From NCBI GenBank assembly GCA_020630735.1, contig JAHDIP010000022.1, positions 1 through 45,274 of the forward strand: DNA of 45,274 bases. The letters run 5' to 3'. The notes under the pieces are model-generated. The model ran no database searches. It had not been told where the DNA came from and saw nothing but the letters and a program-made list of their open reading frames with translations. Position 1 is the first letter of the stretch. Each line of letters opens with the position of its first letter. Positions 11,372 through 31,300 of this stretch are shown one piece after another. The position numbers were made by a program, and so were the translations under genes. The stretch is from Saprospiraceae bacterium. Lineage in GTDB: Bacteria > Bacteroidota > Bacteroidia > Chitinophagales > Saprospiraceae.

Positions 11372-14300
11372 ATGAATCAAGGACCTTTTTTACTCTGCAT
11401 TCTATTTGTATTAGGATTGTTCTCTACCATTTTTGCGAATGGTGGACACTCCAACTTATCTGATCCGTATATACCTGAATATGTTGTTGTTACACAAGAT
11501 ACGGTACCACCTATTGAAGACCGATATGGTGACTTTATTAATGATTCTGGTAATAATCCTTTCGATCTGAAGGATCCTAATGTCATAGATCAAAAAGTAG
11601 AGTATGACCCAGAATCAGGATATTATATCATTTCCGAAAAAATTGGCGATGATTATTTTCGTATGCCAACATATATGACTTTTGAGGAATATCTCGATTG
11701 GCGGGCAAAAAAACAACAACAGGATTATTTTGATCGTCTTGCAGGAGTAAGTACTGGCGATGGTAGTTCGGGGGAACTTATCGATCCTATTGAAAAATAT
11801 GATATAAAAAACAGTTTAGTTGATCGTCTTTTTGGTGGTACAGCTGTAGATATACGCCCACAAGGTAATATTGATCTTACCTTCGGAGTTGATTTTCAAC
11901 GAGTAGACAATCCTATCTTGACTTTACGTCAACGTCGTCAAGGAGGATTTGATTTTGATATGGGGATTCAGATGAACGTTACAGGTAAAATTGGTGAAAA
12001 GTTGAACTTGTCTACAAATTACAATACACAAGCAACATTTGATTTTGAAAATCAAATGAAGTTAGAGTATAATAGTGATGCTTTTACAGAAGATGAAATT
12101 ATAAAAAAGATAGAGGCGGGTAATGTAAGTTTACCACTTAGAGGTTCGCTTATTCAAGGTAGTCAGAGTTTGTTTGGTTTGAAAACAGAGTTGCAGTTTG
12201 GTAAGTTACGACTGACAGGGGTTGCATCTCAGCAAAAATCGAAGCGAGAAGAACTCCAAATACAAGGAGGTAGTCAGCTTCAAACATTTAGCGTACAAGC
12301 AGATGAATACGATGAAAACCGTCATTTTTTCCTTTCACATTATAATCGTGATGTCTTTACAGATGCTGTTTCCAATCTTCCTTATATCAATAGTTTGTTT
12401 AAGATAAACCGTATTGAAGTTTGGGTAACTAATGATAGAAATGTTACAGAAGGTGTGCGAGATATAGTAGCCTTAACAGATTTGGGTGAACCGACACGAA
12501 TCACCAATGATAATCCTTTATATCAAGCTCCACCATCTCCAAGACACTTAGATATTACAGGAGAAAATGCATTGCCAGGTAGAAATTTAAGTAATGTTTC
12601 TGCTAACGATTTATACGATGGTATCCTCAATAATTCGCAAACTCGTTTTTTAGATAGAGCAGTGTCTACTTTACAATCTCCAGCTTTTGGCTTTCAACAA
12701 GCAACAGACTTTGAAAAGGTAAGGGCAAGACCATTAGCACCAACAGAATTTACCTATCATCCTGAACTAGGATTCATTTCTGTAAATGTAAACTTAAGAC
12801 CTGATCAAGTATTGGGAGTGGCTTATGAGTATACCTATAATGGAGAAATTTATACCGTTGGTGAGTTTAGTAATGATATACCAATTAGTGAAGATACGCT
12901 GAATGTCTTATATGTGAAAATGCTAAAGAGTACAACCCAGCGAGTAGATGTACCTTCGTGGGATTTGATGATGAAAAACGTCTACTCTATTGGAGCATTC
13001 CAAGTTAGCCAACAAGACTTTAAATTAGATATATTTTATGAAGATCCGGGAGGAGGACAAAAACGATTCTTGCCCGAAACAAATTTAGAAGGAGAGCCTC
13101 TATTACGAGTGTTCAATCTCGATAAACTTAATGTACAAGGAGACCCCCAACCCGATGGAATATTTGACTTCGTACCTGGAGTAACTATTAATACTCGAAA
13201 TGGACGGGTCATGTTTCCTGTATTAGAACCGTTTGGAACAGACTTGAGTGAAAAGATAGAAGGAGATGTTTTCAAACGACGATATTCCTATCAAGAGTTG
13301 TATGACTCTACCATTACAAGGGCGAGAGAATATCCCGAATTTAACCGATTTACCATTCGAGGTAGTTACAAATCAAGTGTGTCCTCCGAAATATCCTTAG
13401 GAGCTTTTAACTTGCCCCAAGGATCGGTAAGAGTACGAGCAGGTGGTCAAGTACTTATAGAAGGACAAGACTATGAAGTAGATTATAATATTGGTCGAGT
13501 AAAAATATTAAGAGATGATATCCTTAATTCTGGTGTACCGATTAATGTCTCCTTTGAAGATAATACGCTCTTCGGTTTCCAGACCAAGACTCTTCTAGGG
13601 CTTCGAGCCGATTATGAAATCAATAAAAACTTTAACATAGGAGGTACTTATTTACATTTATTTGAACGACCATTCACACAAAAGGTAAATATTGGGGATG
13701 ACCCGATTAATAACCGAGTTGTTGGATTAGATATCAACTATAGTAAAGAAGCTCCTTGGCTTACTCGTTTTGTTGATCGCATTCCACTCATTGATACAAA
13801 AGAAGCATCAAACATCTCCTTTATGGCGGAAGTTGCTGCCTTAAAACCAGGGCACTCCAGTGCTGTAAACCAAGGAGAAGATGCTGATGGAAATAAAGAT
13901 AAAGGAGGTATTGTTTATCTCGACGATTTTGAAGGAAGTGCTAGTTCTTTTGACCTGAGAACACCAGCTAACAGATGGATTTTATCATCTGTCCCTCAAA
14001 ATGATTTGCAAAACAATAACCCAGGCTTTCCCGAAGCAAATGTGATTGATTCTACACTCTATGGTGTCAATCGTGCAAAATTAAACTGGTATCGTGTAGA
14101 CCAAAGTGTCCTTAGTCAACAGGATCAAAGTGATCGTTATGCAAGAATAGTACGACAAGAAGAAGTATTCCCTAACCTTCAAGTACAACCAGGGCAATTA
14201 GGTAATATACAATCATTTGATTTGACGTATTACCCTGACGAGAGAGGTCCATATAATTTTGATTTACCAGGTGGTACTCAATATTCTGCTGGTTTAAATA

Positions 14301-24424: not shown

Positions 24425-27124
24425 ATGAGGAAGCAATTACTACTAGCTTTATTTTTTTGTTTTAGCATATCTTCTATGTATGCTCAACAAGTAGTATCTG
24501 GCGTTATTACTGATGAAGCTAACCAACCGCTTATTGGTGTAAATGTATTAGAGAAAGGAACCAGTAATGGTACTATCACAGGAATAGATGGCGATTATAG
24601 AATGAATGTCAGTAGCAGCTCAGCTACACTTGTTATTAGTTATATTGGCTACGCTACTCAAGAAGTAGCACTTAATGGGAAAACTGAAATTAATATTACT
24701 CTTTTAGAAGGAGTTGAATTGGGAGAAGTACTTCTAGTCGGTTCGAGAAGTTATAATCGAACAGCTACCGATTCGCCTGTTGCAATTGATGTGATTGATG
24801 TAGCAGAGTTGGCCTCCAATACAGGTAAAGTAGAAATTAACCAAATCTTACAATATGCTGCACCTTCGTTCAATGCAACGAAACAGTCGGGTTCGGATGG
24901 TGCTGACCATATTGATCCTGCATCACTTCGTGGACTTGGACCTGACCAAACTTTAGTTTTGATAAATGGAAAACGTCGTCACCAATCTTCATTGGTAAAT
25001 GTTTTTGGTACAAGAGGTCGAGGTAATTCGGGTACCGACTTAAATGCTATTCCTGCTTCTGCGATCAAACGTATAGAAGTACTAAGAGATGGTGCATCTG
25101 CACAGTATGGTTCAGATGCGATAGCTGGAGTTATCAACATCGTATTGAAAGACAAAACAGATGGTGTTTCTGGTGGTATTTCTTATGGAGCATATAGTAC
25201 GGCTGTTGGTGCAACTTTCGAAGAAGAGTATGGAGATGCATTATTTAATGTAGATGGAAAACAGCGAGTACTTGATGAGGATGGTGACAAAAGCTTTGAC
25301 GGAAATACAACTAAGGTTGATTTAAACTATGGTATTGAGTTAGGTAAAGAAGGTGGTTACGCCAACTTCACAGCGGAGTATTTGACAAAACAAAGAACCT
25401 TGCGTCCTGGTTTCTCTTGGAGAAAAGGATATGGTAGTGCAGCTATAGACGGGTTTAATTTTATGGTAAATTCTTCTATGCCAATAGGTGACAATACAGA
25501 AGTATATGCTTTTGGCGGACGTAACTTTAGAGATACAGATGCTTTTGCATTCTCAAGAGGTAGCTTTGCAGATGGTGATAATCGTGCAGTTCCTAGTTTG
25601 TACCCAAATGGTTTTACACCAAGAATTACATCGAATATTACAGACCAATCTGTTTCTGCAGGGGTAAGACACTCGATGGATAATGGATGGAAAGTAGATT
25701 TTAATAATACTTATGGTAAAAACCTTTTCCACTATTTTATCAAAGGATCAAACAATGCTTCTTTATGGGATGCCTCTCCTACTGATTTTGATGCAGGTGG
25801 TCATTCACTTTCTATGAATACAACAGGCTTGGATTTTAGCAAATTTTATAATGACTATATAGCAGGAATCAACGTTGCTTTTGGTATGGAATATCGTACA
25901 GAAAACTTCCAAATTTTTGCAGGAGAAGAAGCATCTTATGCATTATATGATACACTTGGTGTAGCGATAACAAATCCTGCGGTACAAGTGCCTGCTGTAG
26001 ATACTAATGGAGATCAACTTTCTGGAGGCTCACAAGGTTTTCCTGGCTATAGTCCATCAAATGAAGTAGATAGAAATAGAACGAACCTTGGAGCTTATCT
26101 GGATATGGAATTTAATATTACTGAGGCATTCCTTATCGGTACAGCCGTTCGTTACGAAACGTACAGCGATTTTGGTGAAACCTTTAACTACAAGTTAGCG
26201 TCTAGATATAAGATTAATGATAATTTCTCTTTAAGAGGTTCTTTTTCTTCTGGATTTAGAGCACCTTCTCTGGCGCAAATTCACTATAATTTACTATTCA
26301 ATAATATCGTAGCAGGTCGTTCTGTTCGTACCTTATTGGCTTCTAATACGAGTACCGTTACAAAGGCATTTGGTATTGATCCTTTAAAAGAAGAAACTGC
26401 CTTGAATGCAAGTGTTGGTTTTACAGCAAAATTTGGAGGTTTTACTGCTACTGTTGATGGCTACTCAATAGCTGTAGATGATCGTATTATTTTGACAGAC
26501 AACTTTGATGCAACGAGTTTAAATGTTGGAGCAGAGGCTGCACAGTTTTTTGCAAATGGTGTTAATACTAGAACAACTGGTTTAGATGTGGTATTAAACT
26601 ACAAACACTACTTAGCGGATGAAAGTAGCAACTTAAATGTTGGTATTGCTGCTAACTTTAATCAACTTGAAATTGATGCGATCAATAGTGGTGAATTAAA
26701 CGAATATACTTTCTTTGGACCATTCTCTCAAGCGTATTTAGAAGCTGCAGCACCTGATTTCAAAGTGGGAGTCAATGTTGGATTTTCTTCTTCTAAGTTT
26801 GATGCGCTCTTATCTTGGACACAATTTAGTGAAGTACAATTACAAGATTTCCAATGGGTAGATTCTCCTGCAACAAACGCAGCTGAAGCCGCTGCCTTAT
26901 TCGAAGTAGCAACAGATACGTACGAAATGGCTGGTACACTTGATTTGAGCTTGACGTATAAGTTTTCTCCATACTTACGGTTGACAATTGGTGGAAATAA
27001 TATTCTAAATGCTTATCCTACTCCTCAATTTGATGGTTGGACAGATCAAGGTGGATTTAATGATTCTGTACAAATGGGATCTGATGGAGCTTACTTCTTC
27101 GGTCGTTTAGGATTCAACTTTTAA
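24425..27124 (+). CDS. TonB-dependent outer-membrane receptor with carboxypeptidase-regulatory-like domain
   Basis: The 899-residue product has a signal peptide (MRKQLLLALF to MYAQ). A CarboxypepD_reg-like/CNA-B domain follows (VSGVITDEANQPLIGVNVLEKGT, about 24-105), then a plug (about 115-240) with LRGLGPDQTLVLINGKRRHQ and IKRIEVLRDGASAQYGSDAIAGVINI, and a beta-barrel ending in aromatic FFGRLGFNF. Such receptors import ligands such as siderophores or oligomers using energy from TonB-ExbBD. No SusD partner follows, so it is not a typical glycan SusCD pair; the substrate is unknown. The ATG at 24425 was chosen because it begins the signal peptide; an in-frame TTG 54 bases upstream would add an unlikely N-terminal extension. 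A strong hairpin terminator lies 40 bases after the stop, inside the next reading frame. Confidence 0.92.
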   Translation: MRKQLLLALFFCFSISSMYAQQVVSGVITDEANQPLIGVNVLEKGTSNGTITGIDGDYRMNVSSSSATLVISYIGYATQEVALNGKTEINITLLEGVELGEVLLVGSRSYNRTATDSPVAIDVIDVAELASNTGKVEINQILQYAAPSFNATKQSGSDGADHIDPASLRGLGPDQTLVLINGKRRHQSSLVNVFGTRGRGNSGTDLNAIPASAIKRIEVLRDGASAQYGSDAIAGVINIVLKDKTDGVSGGISYGAYSTAVGATFEEEYGDALFNVDGKQRVLDEDGDKSFDGNTTKVDLNYGIELGKEGGYANFTAEYLTKQRTLRPGFSWRKGYGSAAIDGFNFMVNSSMPIGDNTEVYAFGGRNFRDTDAFAFSRGSFADGDNRAVPSLYPNGFTPRITSNITDQSVSAGVRHSMDNGWKVDFNNTYGKNLFHYFIKGSNNASLWDASPTDFDAGGHSLSMNTTGLDFSKFYNDYIAGINVAFGMEYRTENFQIFAGEEASYALYDTLGVAITNPAVQVPAVDTNGDQLSGGSQGFPGYSPSNEVDRNRTNLGAYLDMEFNITEAFLIGTAVRYETYSDFGETFNYKLASRYKINDNFSLRGSFSSGFRAPSLAQIHYNLLFNNIVAGRSVRTLLASNTSTVTKAFGIDPLKEETALNASVGFTAKFGGFTATVDGYSIAVDDRIILTDNFDATSLNVGAEAAQFFANGVNTRTTGLDVVLNYKHYLADESSNLNVGIAANFNQLEIDAINSGELNEYTFFGPFSQAYLEAAAPDFKVGVNVGFSSSKFDALLSWTQFSEVQLQDFQWVDSPATNAAEAAALFEVATDTYEMAGTLDLSLTYKFSPYLRLTIGGNNILNAYPTPQFDGWTDQGGFNDSVQMGSDGAYFFGRLGFNF

Positions 27125-27133
27125 GAATCAATA

Positions 27134-28822
27134 ATGCCTTTTATTTTTTTTCATAAAGGTCTTTCGAAGTCCTACGTATCGTTTTGGTACGTAGGACTTC
27201 GTTTTATATTAATCGGTCTATTTTTACTTCACTTCTTTTTTTTATCCTCACTATTAGCACAGCAAACATCAGGTCTTTTCTTGAATGATTCTTTGGCACT
27301 TCAAGGGTATACTCTTTTTGGAAATAATGAAACAACTTATCTTATAAACAACTGTGGACTAATTGTCAATACATGGGAAAGTAATTACAAACCAGGTGAA
27401 GCAATCTATTTGCTTGAAAATGGTAATCTACTACGAACAGCTGAAGTAGATGGCGATTTTAACGCTGGTGGTCTGGGCGGAAGATTTGAATTGTTCTCTT
27501 GGGAAGGTGAGTTATTGTGGTACTATGATTTTGTTAGCGAAACGATGCACCCACATCACGATATTGAACCCTTGCCCAACGGAAATTTTTTATGTATAGT
27601 TTGGGAAAAGATAACAGCAAAAGAAGCCCAAGCAAAAGGGCGACAGTTTGAAGGAGACTTCTGGTCTGAACGTATTGTTGAACTAGAAATGGTGGGAATA
27701 AATGAAGTAAACATCAAATGGGAATGGCGCCTTTGGGACCACCTCATACAAGACTATGATAGTAGTAAACCAAATTACGGAAACGTAAGCCATCATCCTG
27801 AATTGGTCAACCTAAATTATATTGGAGAAGGCGAAGAAACTTCAGGTAATTGGATTCACCTCAATGCCATAGATTATAATGAGAGGCTAAACCAAATTGT
27901 AGTGAGTTCACGACTGTTTGGCGAAATATGGATCATCGACCACAGTACTACTACTGAAGAGGCAGCTTCACACATAGGTGGTCAATCTGGGAAAGGTGGT
28001 GATTTGCTATATCGTTTTGGAAATCCACAAACGTATAAAAGAGGTACAGCCAAAGATCAAATTTTTAGACATCAACATGATGTCCGCTGGATTCCGGAAG
28101 ATAACCTACATAGTGGTAAACTTATGGTGTTTAATAATGATATGCTACCAAATCAATCTCAAGTCAATATTTGGTCAGCACCTATCAAAGAAGATAGCAA
28201 TTATGCTATATTAGAAGATGAAGCTTTTGGACCAACGGAGTTTGATTGGTCATATACAGCTGATGACTTTTACTCCCAGTATATGTCTAGTGCCCAAGTT
28301 TTGCCGAATGAACATCTTTTTATTTGTGAAGGAGGTAGTGGGCATTTTTTCGAAATAGATACTAATGGGAGAATTGTTTGGGAATATATCAATCCTGTCA
28401 ATAGTAATGGAAGCCCAGCTATTCAGGGAGGAACGGTACGATTTAATCAAACGTTTAGAGCCACAAAATATCCATTGGATTATCCTGCATTTAGCGATAA
28501 AATCCTAGAAGGAACAATCCCTGTAGAGATTAACCCTTGGGAAAATGATTGCTTCATCCCTGATCTTTCTTATACAGAAGACGAGGATATAAATATCAAA
28601 ATTATAGGAAACCCTATAATTGATGAGTTAATTGTACAATCAAATAGCGATAGATTAATAACGTTAACTATTTTTAATTCTATGGGTCAAAAGATTAATA
28701 AAATGACCATAAAAGAAGGTAGGAACACAATAGAATTAGGGCGTTTTCCAAGTGGCATATATTTTCTATTATTTACCAATACAACAAAGTTTTCACAAAT
28801 TTATAAGATATGGAAAATATAG
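27134..28822 (+). CDS. Secreted arylsulfotransferase (ASST)-like beta-propeller protein with T9SS sorting domain
   Basis: The 562-residue product has a hydrophobic export signal (about 24-42, cleavage near LLAQQ). The main domain resembles ASST proteins: repeats such as LLENGNLLRTAEV, HHDIEPLPNGNFLCIVWE, HLNAIDYNERLNQIVVSSR and FRHQHDVRW, typical of the ASST propeller. A C-terminal T9SS sorting domain (about 490-562) contains NPIIDELIVQ and PSGIYFLLFTN. ASST enzymes transfer sulfate between phenols; whether this protein does so is uncertain, since many Bacteroidota relatives are uncharacterised. The only ATG, GTG or TTG before the signal is 27134, which gives an unusually long n-region. A 14-bp terminator-like hairpin lies within those codons, so expression may be attenuated. 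It starts 9 bases after the receptor stop. Confidence 0.8.
   Translation: MPFIFFHKGLSKSYVSFWYVGLRFILIGLFLLHFFFLSSLLAQQTSGLFLNDSLALQGYTLFGNNETTYLINNCGLIVNTWESNYKPGEAIYLLENGNLLRTAEVDGDFNAGGLGGRFELFSWEGELLWYYDFVSETMHPHHDIEPLPNGNFLCIVWEKITAKEAQAKGRQFEGDFWSERIVELEMVGINEVNIKWEWRLWDHLIQDYDSSKPNYGNVSHHPELVNLNYIGEGEETSGNWIHLNAIDYNERLNQIVVSSRLFGEIWIIDHSTTTEEAASHIGGQSGKGGDLLYRFGNPQTYKRGTAKDQIFRHQHDVRWIPEDNLHSGKLMVFNNDMLPNQSQVNIWSAPIKEDSNYAILEDEAFGPTEFDWSYTADDFYSQYMSSAQVLPNEHLFICEGGSGHFFEIDTNGRIVWEYINPVNSNGSPAIQGGTVRFNQTFRATKYPLDYPAFSDKILEGTIPVEINPWENDCFIPDLSYTEDEDINIKIIGNPIIDELIVQSNSDRLITLTIFNSMGQKINKMTIKEGRNTIELGRFPSGIYFLLFTNTTKFSQIYKIWKI
27165..27205 (+). terminator. Strong intrinsic-terminator hairpin, overlapping the start of the next coding region
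   Basis: A 14-bp perfect inverted repeat (27165-27178 and 27188-27201, 9-base loop) is followed directly by TTTTATATT. It is 40 bases after the TonB receptor stop, a normal terminator distance, yet it lies within codons 11-23 of the ASST-like gene. It probably terminates or attenuates read-through from the receptor gene. Confidence 0.75.
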
Positions 28823-28945: not shown

Positions 28946-31300
28946 TTGGAGAAAACACTACTCATACTTTCATGCTGCCTGCTTCTAGGTTTTACTGCTT
29001 TTGCACAAAAAGATGCTTCTGGGAAGACAGATGCACCAAAGCAAAAGAAGTGGTTAGAACTAGACTTTTCGTTGAAAGGGGGTTTTTATAATGAAGAATT
29101 ACAAATAGAACTCTTATCTCCAGGTGCTAAGATTTTTTATACAACTAATGGTGAACCTCCAACCTATGAATCGACAAGATATCAACAACCAATCAAAATA
29201 AAAGAAACTACCGTTCTTCGAGCTATTGCTTACAAAGCAAAGCGTAAGAGTAAGACTAAAGCAAATACATATTTTATTAACGAACCTGCTACTACTTTTC
29301 CTACAATCTCCATTGCTATATCAGATGCTGATTTATTTGACGAAGAAGCAGGCTTATTTATGGATGGTTACGAGGTGCAAGATTCTAGTTGGAGAAAAGA
29401 AGGGGCTAATTTTTGGTCGAGAAAAGAAATATTGACCAACTGTGAGATTTTTGAAAGTGATGGCAAAAGAGAATTTAATAGTATAACAGGCTTTCGACTG
29501 TTTGGTGGCATGAGTCGTTTATTTCCTCAAAAATCTATGACCATTGTTACGAGAGATCGCTATGGTAAAAAAAGAATTTCACATAAGATTTTTGGTAAAG
29601 ACGGTTTGAAAAAGCATAAATTTTTAGTACTTCGAAATTCGGGAAGTGATTTTGGTAAATCGCATTTTAGAGATGCTTTTATGACAAGCCTTTTAGATGA
29701 TTGGGATATTGAGAAGCAAGACTATCGTTCAACACATGTGTATATCAATGGGCGTTATTGGGGAATTTATAATATCAGAGAAAAAATTAATCGCTATTTT
29801 TTAGAAGGACATACCGATCTTGATAAAGATAGTATTGATTTGATAGAGCATCGTATGTCTTTAAAACGTGGTTCGACAAAACACTATCGAAGAATGTTGA
29901 ATTTTTTAGAAGAAAATTCGATGGCTAATGAAGCGAATTATGCTCATCTCCAAACATTGATGGAAGTCGAAAACTTCATGGATTACCAAATAGCTCAAAT
30001 GTTTTTTGATAATCAAGATGCTGGTGGTAATATCAAATTTTGGAGACCACAAGCACCTGCAGGTCGCTGGCGTTGGATTTTATACGATACTGACTGGGGG
30101 TTCGGTTTACACAATCCTGAAGCATATAAAAATAACAGCATTGCTTTTCATCTTGAACCAGAAGGACCCGCTTGGCCAAATCCTCCATGGAGTACGCTTA
30201 TTATGCGTAAACTAATGGAAAACCCTGACTTTAAACAAGCTTTTATTAATCGCTTTGCAGATCATTTGAATACAACATTCGAATCGGAACATGTAGTAGA
30301 ATCCATCAATCGTTTTTATAAAGATTTGGAACCAGAAATGTATAGACACCTTGATCGGTGGAATCTAAGAGAAAAAACATGGTTATCTCATATTGAACGA
30401 ATGCGAATTTTTGGATGGAAACGGCCTGAATATGTTCGTACTTATTTACAAGAAATGTTTGAGCTTGGTCATTTGTCAGAATTGCAGGCAAGTTCGAGTG
30501 CTGGAGGACGTATTGTCATCAATGAAAATATAGTGGTCAACGATAAAGGTTTTGTTGGACAATACTTCGAAAAAGTACCTATCTATATCCAAGCTATTCC
30601 TGAATTTGGGTATAAGTTTTCCCATTGGGATGGAATCGAAATAGACAATGACGTTTTTGATATTACAATGCTACCTCGTGAAAAGAAGTATAACATTCGG
30701 GCAGTGTTTGAAAAATCTCTTCATCCTCTTACAGGTCAAATTCTAATTAATGAAATTAGTTGTAACGATAAGCATGCAGGCGATTGGATAGAGTTGTACA
30801 ATAATTCTGATGAAGAAGTGATGCTGGAAGATTGGATACTTACGGATAAAAAACATTTTTACAAACTACCTTATATTTATCTTAAACCTGATTCTTACCT
30901 GACGGTTTGTGAAGATACAACTGCTTTCCGCAATATGTTTCCTGATGTAAAAGGAATGATTGTTGGTAATTTTAATTTTGGTTTAAGTAAACGAAAAGAA
31001 CGACTTGGTTTTTTTACTAACGAAGGCGCTTCAATAGATAGTGTCTTTTATGACATAGAACCTAAAGATACGACCTTTACTATTGGCTTATTATTACCAC
31101 ATTTAGATAATAGCGATCTTGAAAATTGGGATATAAAAAAGGGGGCTGGAACACCAAACGAGCCTAATCCCTACTATCTAGAAAGTCGTATCAAAGCAGA
31201 ACAAGAGCTTTGGGTCAGAGTAGGTATTGGTATAGGCTTATTGTTAATTTGTTTCTTAGCACTCGCTATGAAACGCCGCAAGACTAGAAAAGCAGCTTAA
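28946..31300 (+). CDS. Membrane-anchored CotH-kinase-domain surface protein with lamin-tail domain
   Basis: The 784-residue product has a signal peptide (1-20, ending AFAQ). A chitobiase C-terminal-like domain follows (about 45-110, SPGAKIFYTTNGEPPTYES), then a CotH domain (about 180-480) with the family motifs NGRYWGIYNIREKINRYF (268-285) and RWRWILYDTDWGFG (374-387, acidic D381 and D383). After it come an InlB-repeat-like segment (FGYKFSHWDG), a lamin-tail domain (about 598-690, ILINEISCN with WIELYNNS), and one C-terminal membrane helix (about 755-775) followed by basic KRRKTRKA. CotH proteins are atypical kinases, known from spore coat phosphorylation; the target here is unknown. No T9SS tail is present. 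The TTG at 28946 is the only usable start before the signal; the ATG at 28907 is separated by TAG. Confidence 0.85.
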   Translation: MEKTLLILSCCLLLGFTAFAQKDASGKTDAPKQKKWLELDFSLKGGFYNEELQIELLSPGAKIFYTTNGEPPTYESTRYQQPIKIKETTVLRAIAYKAKRKSKTKANTYFINEPATTFPTISIAISDADLFDEEAGLFMDGYEVQDSSWRKEGANFWSRKEILTNCEIFESDGKREFNSITGFRLFGGMSRLFPQKSMTIVTRDRYGKKRISHKIFGKDGLKKHKFLVLRNSGSDFGKSHFRDAFMTSLLDDWDIEKQDYRSTHVYINGRYWGIYNIREKINRYFLEGHTDLDKDSIDLIEHRMSLKRGSTKHYRRMLNFLEENSMANEANYAHLQTLMEVENFMDYQIAQMFFDNQDAGGNIKFWRPQAPAGRWRWILYDTDWGFGLHNPEAYKNNSIAFHLEPEGPAWPNPPWSTLIMRKLMENPDFKQAFINRFADHLNTTFESEHVVESINRFYKDLEPEMYRHLDRWNLREKTWLSHIERMRIFGWKRPEYVRTYLQEMFELGHLSELQASSSAGGRIVINENIVVNDKGFVGQYFEKVPIYIQAIPEFGYKFSHWDGIEIDNDVFDITMLPREKKYNIRAVFEKSLHPLTGQILINEISCNDKHAGDWIELYNNSDEEVMLEDWILTDKKHFYKLPYIYLKPDSYLTVCEDTTAFRNMFPDVKGMIVGNFNFGLSKRKERLGFFTNEGASIDSVFYDIEPKDTTFTIGLLLPHLDNSDLENWDIKKGAGTPNEPNPYYLESRIKAEQELWVRVGIGIGLLLICFLALAMKRRKTRKAA

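Follow-up and report, generated by a model that had tools for sequence, protein, structure and literature searches.

A terminator-like hairpin inside the open reading frame of an arylsulfotransferase-like gene behind a TonB receptor gene, and a possible relocation of the start codon

The stretch of DNA analysed here, which we call the window, comprises 45,274 nucleotides from a Saprospiraceae bacterium whose genome is a draft (434 contigs, 95.96% complete) and the sole sequence of its genus compared. Two neighbouring genes on its forward strand are of concern (Table 1): that of a TonB-dependent receptor, whose relatives at 29 loci from family genomes are 58-80% identical to it, and that of a secreted protein placed by its domain matches in the arylsulfotransferase (ASST) family, with a type IX secretion (T9SS) tail. 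The ASST reading frame is intact across 562 codons, T9SS tail included; upstream it contains the receptor stop, and it is open from that stop onward. No sequence match of the protein to solved ASST structures was found at E 0.001. Its predicted cleavage site, A-QQ, fits the Q-rule of Bacteroidetes, by which signal peptides are cleaved before Gln (as set out in passages of PMC5837995); the predicted cut, in front of QQTSG, would be the same whichever of the start codons considered below is used. A run of eight T at 27236-27243 lies in the signal-peptide codons and is a possible slippage or assembly-error site; slippage there yielding another frame is judged unlikely.

This genome has an expanded set of ASST-like genes (contigs C267, C376, C290 and C32; loci L002-L008), partly in tandem arrays, with four matches on C32 and two on C267; nine ASST-like matches span about 400 or more query residues, the window gene counted. 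On the 3' side of the latter, on the same strand, a protein with a CotH-kinase domain along with LTD and chitobiase-like domains is encoded (window 28946-31300).

Table 1. Features at the junction between the receptor gene and the ASST-like gene (window coordinates)
Feature	Position	Strand	Basis
TonB-dependent receptor (CarbopepD_reg_2, Plug, beta-barrel); probable owner of the terminator	24425..27124	+	Pfam PF13715, PF07715, PF00593
ASST-like secreted protein ending in a T9SS sorting tail (562 aa when started at ATG 27134)	27134..28822	+	Pfam PF05935, PF14269, PF18962; TIGR04183
Start candidate ATG; 9 nt past the receptor stop, 28 nt before the stem, A at -3	27134..27136	+	No other ATG/GTG/TTG in the ASST frame ahead of the mature protein
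Putative terminator hairpin	27165..27201	+	Inverted repeat, fold against shuffles, single copy, positional counterparts in relatives
TTTT tract of the putative terminator	27202..27205	+	Sequence
Codons 21-25 (GGA CTT CGT TTT ATA), homologous place of the relatives' ATG	27194..27208	+	Spacing of 20-24 codons before T-x-G in 11/12

The hairpin begins 40 nt after the receptor stop TAA (27122-27124), with 14 perfect Watson-Crick pairs between the arms CGAAGTCCTACGTA and TACGTAGGACTTCG. As RNA it folds with 16 pairs and a 5-nt loop, reaching a minimum free energy of -26.5 kcal/mol when folded alone (z -8.35), which none of 200 shuffles equalled; the same holds for its 101-nt context, 27125-27225 (z -6.67, 0/200). 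Its stability is therefore well above chance, as expected of an intrinsic terminator, and a T tract follows directly on the 3' side of the stem, though a short one: the tail, TTTTATATTA, has T at 6 of its first 8 positions and no T run longer than 4. Sequence and fold thus agree with the sequence-only reading, which had described a 14-bp perfect stem followed by TTTT, 40 bases past the receptor stop. Between 23000 and 31000 of the window there are four terminator-like sites, a number at chance for the weak pattern (4.2 expected), and this one is the strongest.

Junctions downstream of TonB orthologues were drawn from 110 candidates: the window, 29 loci from family genomes and 80 from named genomes. 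Seven were removed where the downstream DNA was cut or too short, and 10 as duplicates (named-genome loci identical to family-genome loci across the 150 nt that follow the stop), leaving 93 distinct junctions. The family genomes gave 50 TonB matches, for 30 of which loci were taken (one being the window itself), and six of the 20 further matches were inspected (L044, L219, L221-L224); L044-L049 were left out of the 93. From the named genomes, 80 of 117 relatives were retained in the scan with the TonB alignment. A scan of them with the ASST protein as query gave no relative. Nine extra loci were read, of which two were duplicates, one was too short, five had no tandem pair and one was a new tandem pair (L220). 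In total, 12 relatives carry a TonB and an ASST gene in tandem, 11 of them among the 93 junctions plus L220, a count that is not to be read as a frequency because the family genomes sample a larger family. At two other loci (L093 and L098) the TonB orthologue is followed by an ASST-like gene in convergent orientation, on the opposite strand.

A terminator-like hairpin occurs within 120 nt past the orthologue stop, the range of the scan, in 70/93 regions (window included), where dinucleotide shuffles give 1.7 (sd 0.6). Under a strict criterion (at least 9 pairs, at least 4 of them G-C) the count is 64/93 against 0.3; at 23/93 junctions the scan found no hairpin. All 12 tandem relatives have one at the junction, 10 by scan and two (L139 and L220) by fold, with T-poor tails in L104 and L091. 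Compared by fold (n=11), the window hairpin is the strongest at -25.9 kcal/mol, those of the 10 relatives ranging from -14.8 to -19.6 kcal/mol. Arm sequences vary among the tandem relatives and are unlike those of the window; a kept position with differing arms is the pattern to be expected where a terminator, and not a sequence, is conserved. A survey of 690,456 bases of the window's genome (the window and 40 other stretches) found 120 strict terminator-like hairpins, 77 of which lie within 200 nt on the 3' side of a same-strand ORF stop at a median of 31 nt, so that the spacing of 40 nt in the window is typical.

The long and perfect arms might also suggest a mobile or repeated palindrome inserted into the signal-peptide codons. 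This candidate was tried and rejected, as the palindrome occurs once in the genome (no second copy in a scan allowing up to 3 mismatches, nor in a BLAST search with 131 nt) and hairpins of other sequence stand at the same place in relatives; we consider it extremely improbable.

The hairpin with its TTTT is therefore best read as the intrinsic terminator of the receptor gene, at which its transcripts would end. As is the case for Rho-independent terminators generally, it consists of a stem-loop and a T tract some tens of nucleotides past a stop, shortly enough behind it and kept in position, not in sequence, among orthologues; unlike the usual intrinsic terminator, it falls within the frame of the gene that follows. 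The assignment to the receptor gene made from the sequence alone is thus upheld by the 70/93 junctions, and transcripts entering the ASST gene from upstream do have to cross a terminator, as the same reading had it. As a terminator the hairpin is ordinary; its overlap with the next gene is a small, real oddity of a single genome.

That overlap sets the window apart from its relatives. In all 12 tandem relatives the first in-frame ATG of the ASST gene lies on the 3' side of the hairpin, at 6 (L090), 8 (L096), 8 (L097), 10 (L101), 11 (L091), 12 (L041), 18 (L139), 23 (L042), 32 (L220), 41 (L104), 48 (L142) and 58 nt (L103) from the stem, the gap being 6-12 nt in 6/12. This ATG precedes the T-x-G motif of the mature protein by 20-24 codons in 11/12 (31 in L220), compared with 44 codons from ATG 27134 in the window. 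In none of the 12 does an in-frame ATG precede the hairpin. L104 does have an in-frame TTG ahead of it, and L096 has one at the hairpin's edge; we judge both to be unused, because the ATG of these genes sits at signal-peptide distance. The suggestion that the true start lies just after the hairpin is accordingly supported for the ancestor. Homologues that share the long n-region but lack a hairpin, which the sequence-only reading had named as a refutation, were not encountered: in the tandem homologues n-regions are short, and each junction has its own hairpin. Within the genome of the window, 19 of the 120 strict hairpins are near a same-strand frame of at least 90 codons, and the ATG is never less than 20 nt past the stem.

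In the window itself, the ASST frame from the receptor stop to the T-S-G motif of the mature protein contains no ATG, GTG or TTG besides ATG 27134, which confirms it as the sole standard start available; the next in-frame ATG comes 343 nt past the stem. The place homologous to the relatives' ATG is occupied by codons 21-25, which comprise the final bases of the 3' arm followed by the T tract and an ATA. The signal peptide counted from ATG 27134 is about 20 residues too long, with an n-region of 23 residues, unlike those of the tandem relatives. An open frame through the hairpin is no evidence for the use of this ATG, being common (124/210 frames at 70 other junctions; 4/11 tandem relatives, namely L090, L091, L096 and L104). 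Rarer is the combination of an in-frame ATG ahead of the hairpin and a frame that stays open across it, found in 9/210 frames at the 70 other junctions (4.3%; 6.0% in shuffles). ATG 27134 would otherwise be a coincidence of 4-6%, and its use is therefore favoured. It has A at -3, a positive determinant of initiation in Flavobacterium johnsoniae (according to passages of PMC6847099); this base is weak as support because it is present at the ASST ATG of only 5/11 tandem relatives. On balance we moderately favour a start relocated to ATG 27134, which would then be the one in use. Two further survey hairpins (L116 and L132) also fall within a frame and downstream of an ATG; by eye they are intragenic, with a plausible start of their own upstream. 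The latter locus also holds, at 12554-13417, a membrane-protein-like frame with a terminator-like hairpin in its early codons and no ATG at its apparent start, where a TTG looks usable by eye.

The explanation that we put forward, to which as a whole we assign a probability of about 0.5, joins the receptor's terminator, a lost ATG and a displaced start. The receptor gene would end at its own intrinsic terminator (hairpin and TTTT), with the ASST gene, the second in the same direction, close behind and most simply supplied by polymerase reading through. The ancestral ASST start would have stood after the terminator, as the relatives keep it. In this genome that ATG would have been lost, its modal position now being ATA, and the gene would most likely start at the in-frame ATG just past the receptor stop, the terminator having turned into codons of an n-region that is some 20 residues longer. 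It is the absence of a start codon after the hairpin that would have brought the terminator into the frame of the ASST gene. The loss itself is read from one sequence, the genome being a draft and the only member of its genus compared.

The missing ATG could alternatively be made good by a non-AUG start at the ancestral place, right after the hairpin. The most likely candidate is the AUA at 27206-27208, the only codon among 21-25 that is one base off ATG; the AUC at 27212-27214 would be another. The AUA occupies the modal ATG position of the relatives, 20 codons before T-x-G exactly as in L090, L097 and L139, and 4 nt past the stem, close to the 6-12 nt of six relatives. Several observations argue against it: the product, MLIGLFLL..., would have no positive n-region residue, the U-rich site abuts a 16-pair stem and has T where ATG 27134 has A at -3, and the upstream in-frame ATG would be left as the coincidence mentioned above. 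In E. coli, moreover, non-AUG start codons of the ANN type are very inefficient. The passages of PMC11497404 and PMC7815308 that we consulted contain nothing on AUA starts in such a setting or on this junction. We regard a start at this codon as unlikely.

Also unlikely, though less so, is that the ATG after the hairpin is present in the living strain and missing here through an error of assembly or consensus, or that the start was lost recently and the gene is a pseudogene. All 12 tandem relatives keep this ATG, the draft is in 434 contigs with one sequence for the genus, and the T8 run falls within the signal-peptide codons. Assembly base errors are rare, however, the 562-codon frame is intact down to its T9SS tail, and ATG 27134 would again be coincidental. 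The relocated start thus remains our preferred reading.

How the ASST gene is transcribed bears on a further possibility, raised from the sequence alone, namely that ribosomes which initiate at 27134 prevent the hairpin from folding, so that translation decides whether polymerase passes. The geometry would allow it: the ATG, 9 nt past the receptor stop, leaves 28 nt to the stem, which a reinitiating ribosome would reach after about 10 codons. Such attenuation would require ribosomes to load after the receptor stop and then to pursue the polymerase closely. The start that it needs is absent in the relatives (0/12 with an in-frame ATG before the hairpin), and in 27125-27225 the minimum free energy and centroid folds contain the terminator plus one separate weak stem, with no competing structure in that stretch. 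Ribosome-dependent attenuation is therefore not supported; in the window it would be a by-product at most, and as a regulatory device we hold it to be very improbable.

The stem-to-ATG gaps of 6-12 nt in half of the tandem relatives leave no room between terminator and ATG for a promoter giving a leader of usual length, leaders in Bacteroides thetaiotaomicron having a median of 32 nt with about 3.7% shorter than 10 nt (in passages of PMC7366714). Promoters belonging to the ASST genes and overlapping the terminator are possible. A full TAnnTTTG begins 16 nt (L139) and 12 nt (L097) before the ASST ATG, and L139 also has a TTG at about the right distance; no promoter element common to the junctions was found by a TAnnTTTG scan, which is insensitive (full match in only 2/11 receptor upstream regions read as control), and a sigma-70 scan was at chance (28 against 29.1) and is given no weight. 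The simplest source of ASST mRNA would be read-through from the receptor promoter.

Operons with a leaky terminator between two of their genes exist, and the window shares with them two same-strand genes, a terminator between these and no clear second promoter; it differs in that the terminator overlaps a coding frame, and read-through would here be a deduction from the arrangement. Leader-peptide attenuators such as that of pyrBI are coupled to translation, and in the window a ribosome could likewise, in principle, unfold the terminator, but neither a separate leader peptide nor a competing fold is seen and the arrangement is not conserved. Limited word-based literature searches found no publication on the TonB-ASST junction; we do not claim that there is none in print.

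If our reading is right, the loss of a start codon in a crowded junction can leave an ordinary terminator inside a gene, and the annotated N-termini of genes like that of ASST at such junctions may be wrong. The phylum of the host hardly uses Shine-Dalgarno sequences. We may further conjecture, as a joint proposal that is decidedly speculative, that the strong hairpin of the tandem pairs, kept so near the second start (6-12 nt in 6/12 relatives), both limits read-through and covers the landing site of the ribosome, and that in the window the start has hopped over it and made the terminator coding, translation coupled to that of the receptor opening the terminator. Were the hairpin really to serve both purposes in the tandem pairs, it would be a simple means of holding a secreted enzyme below the neighbouring receptor.
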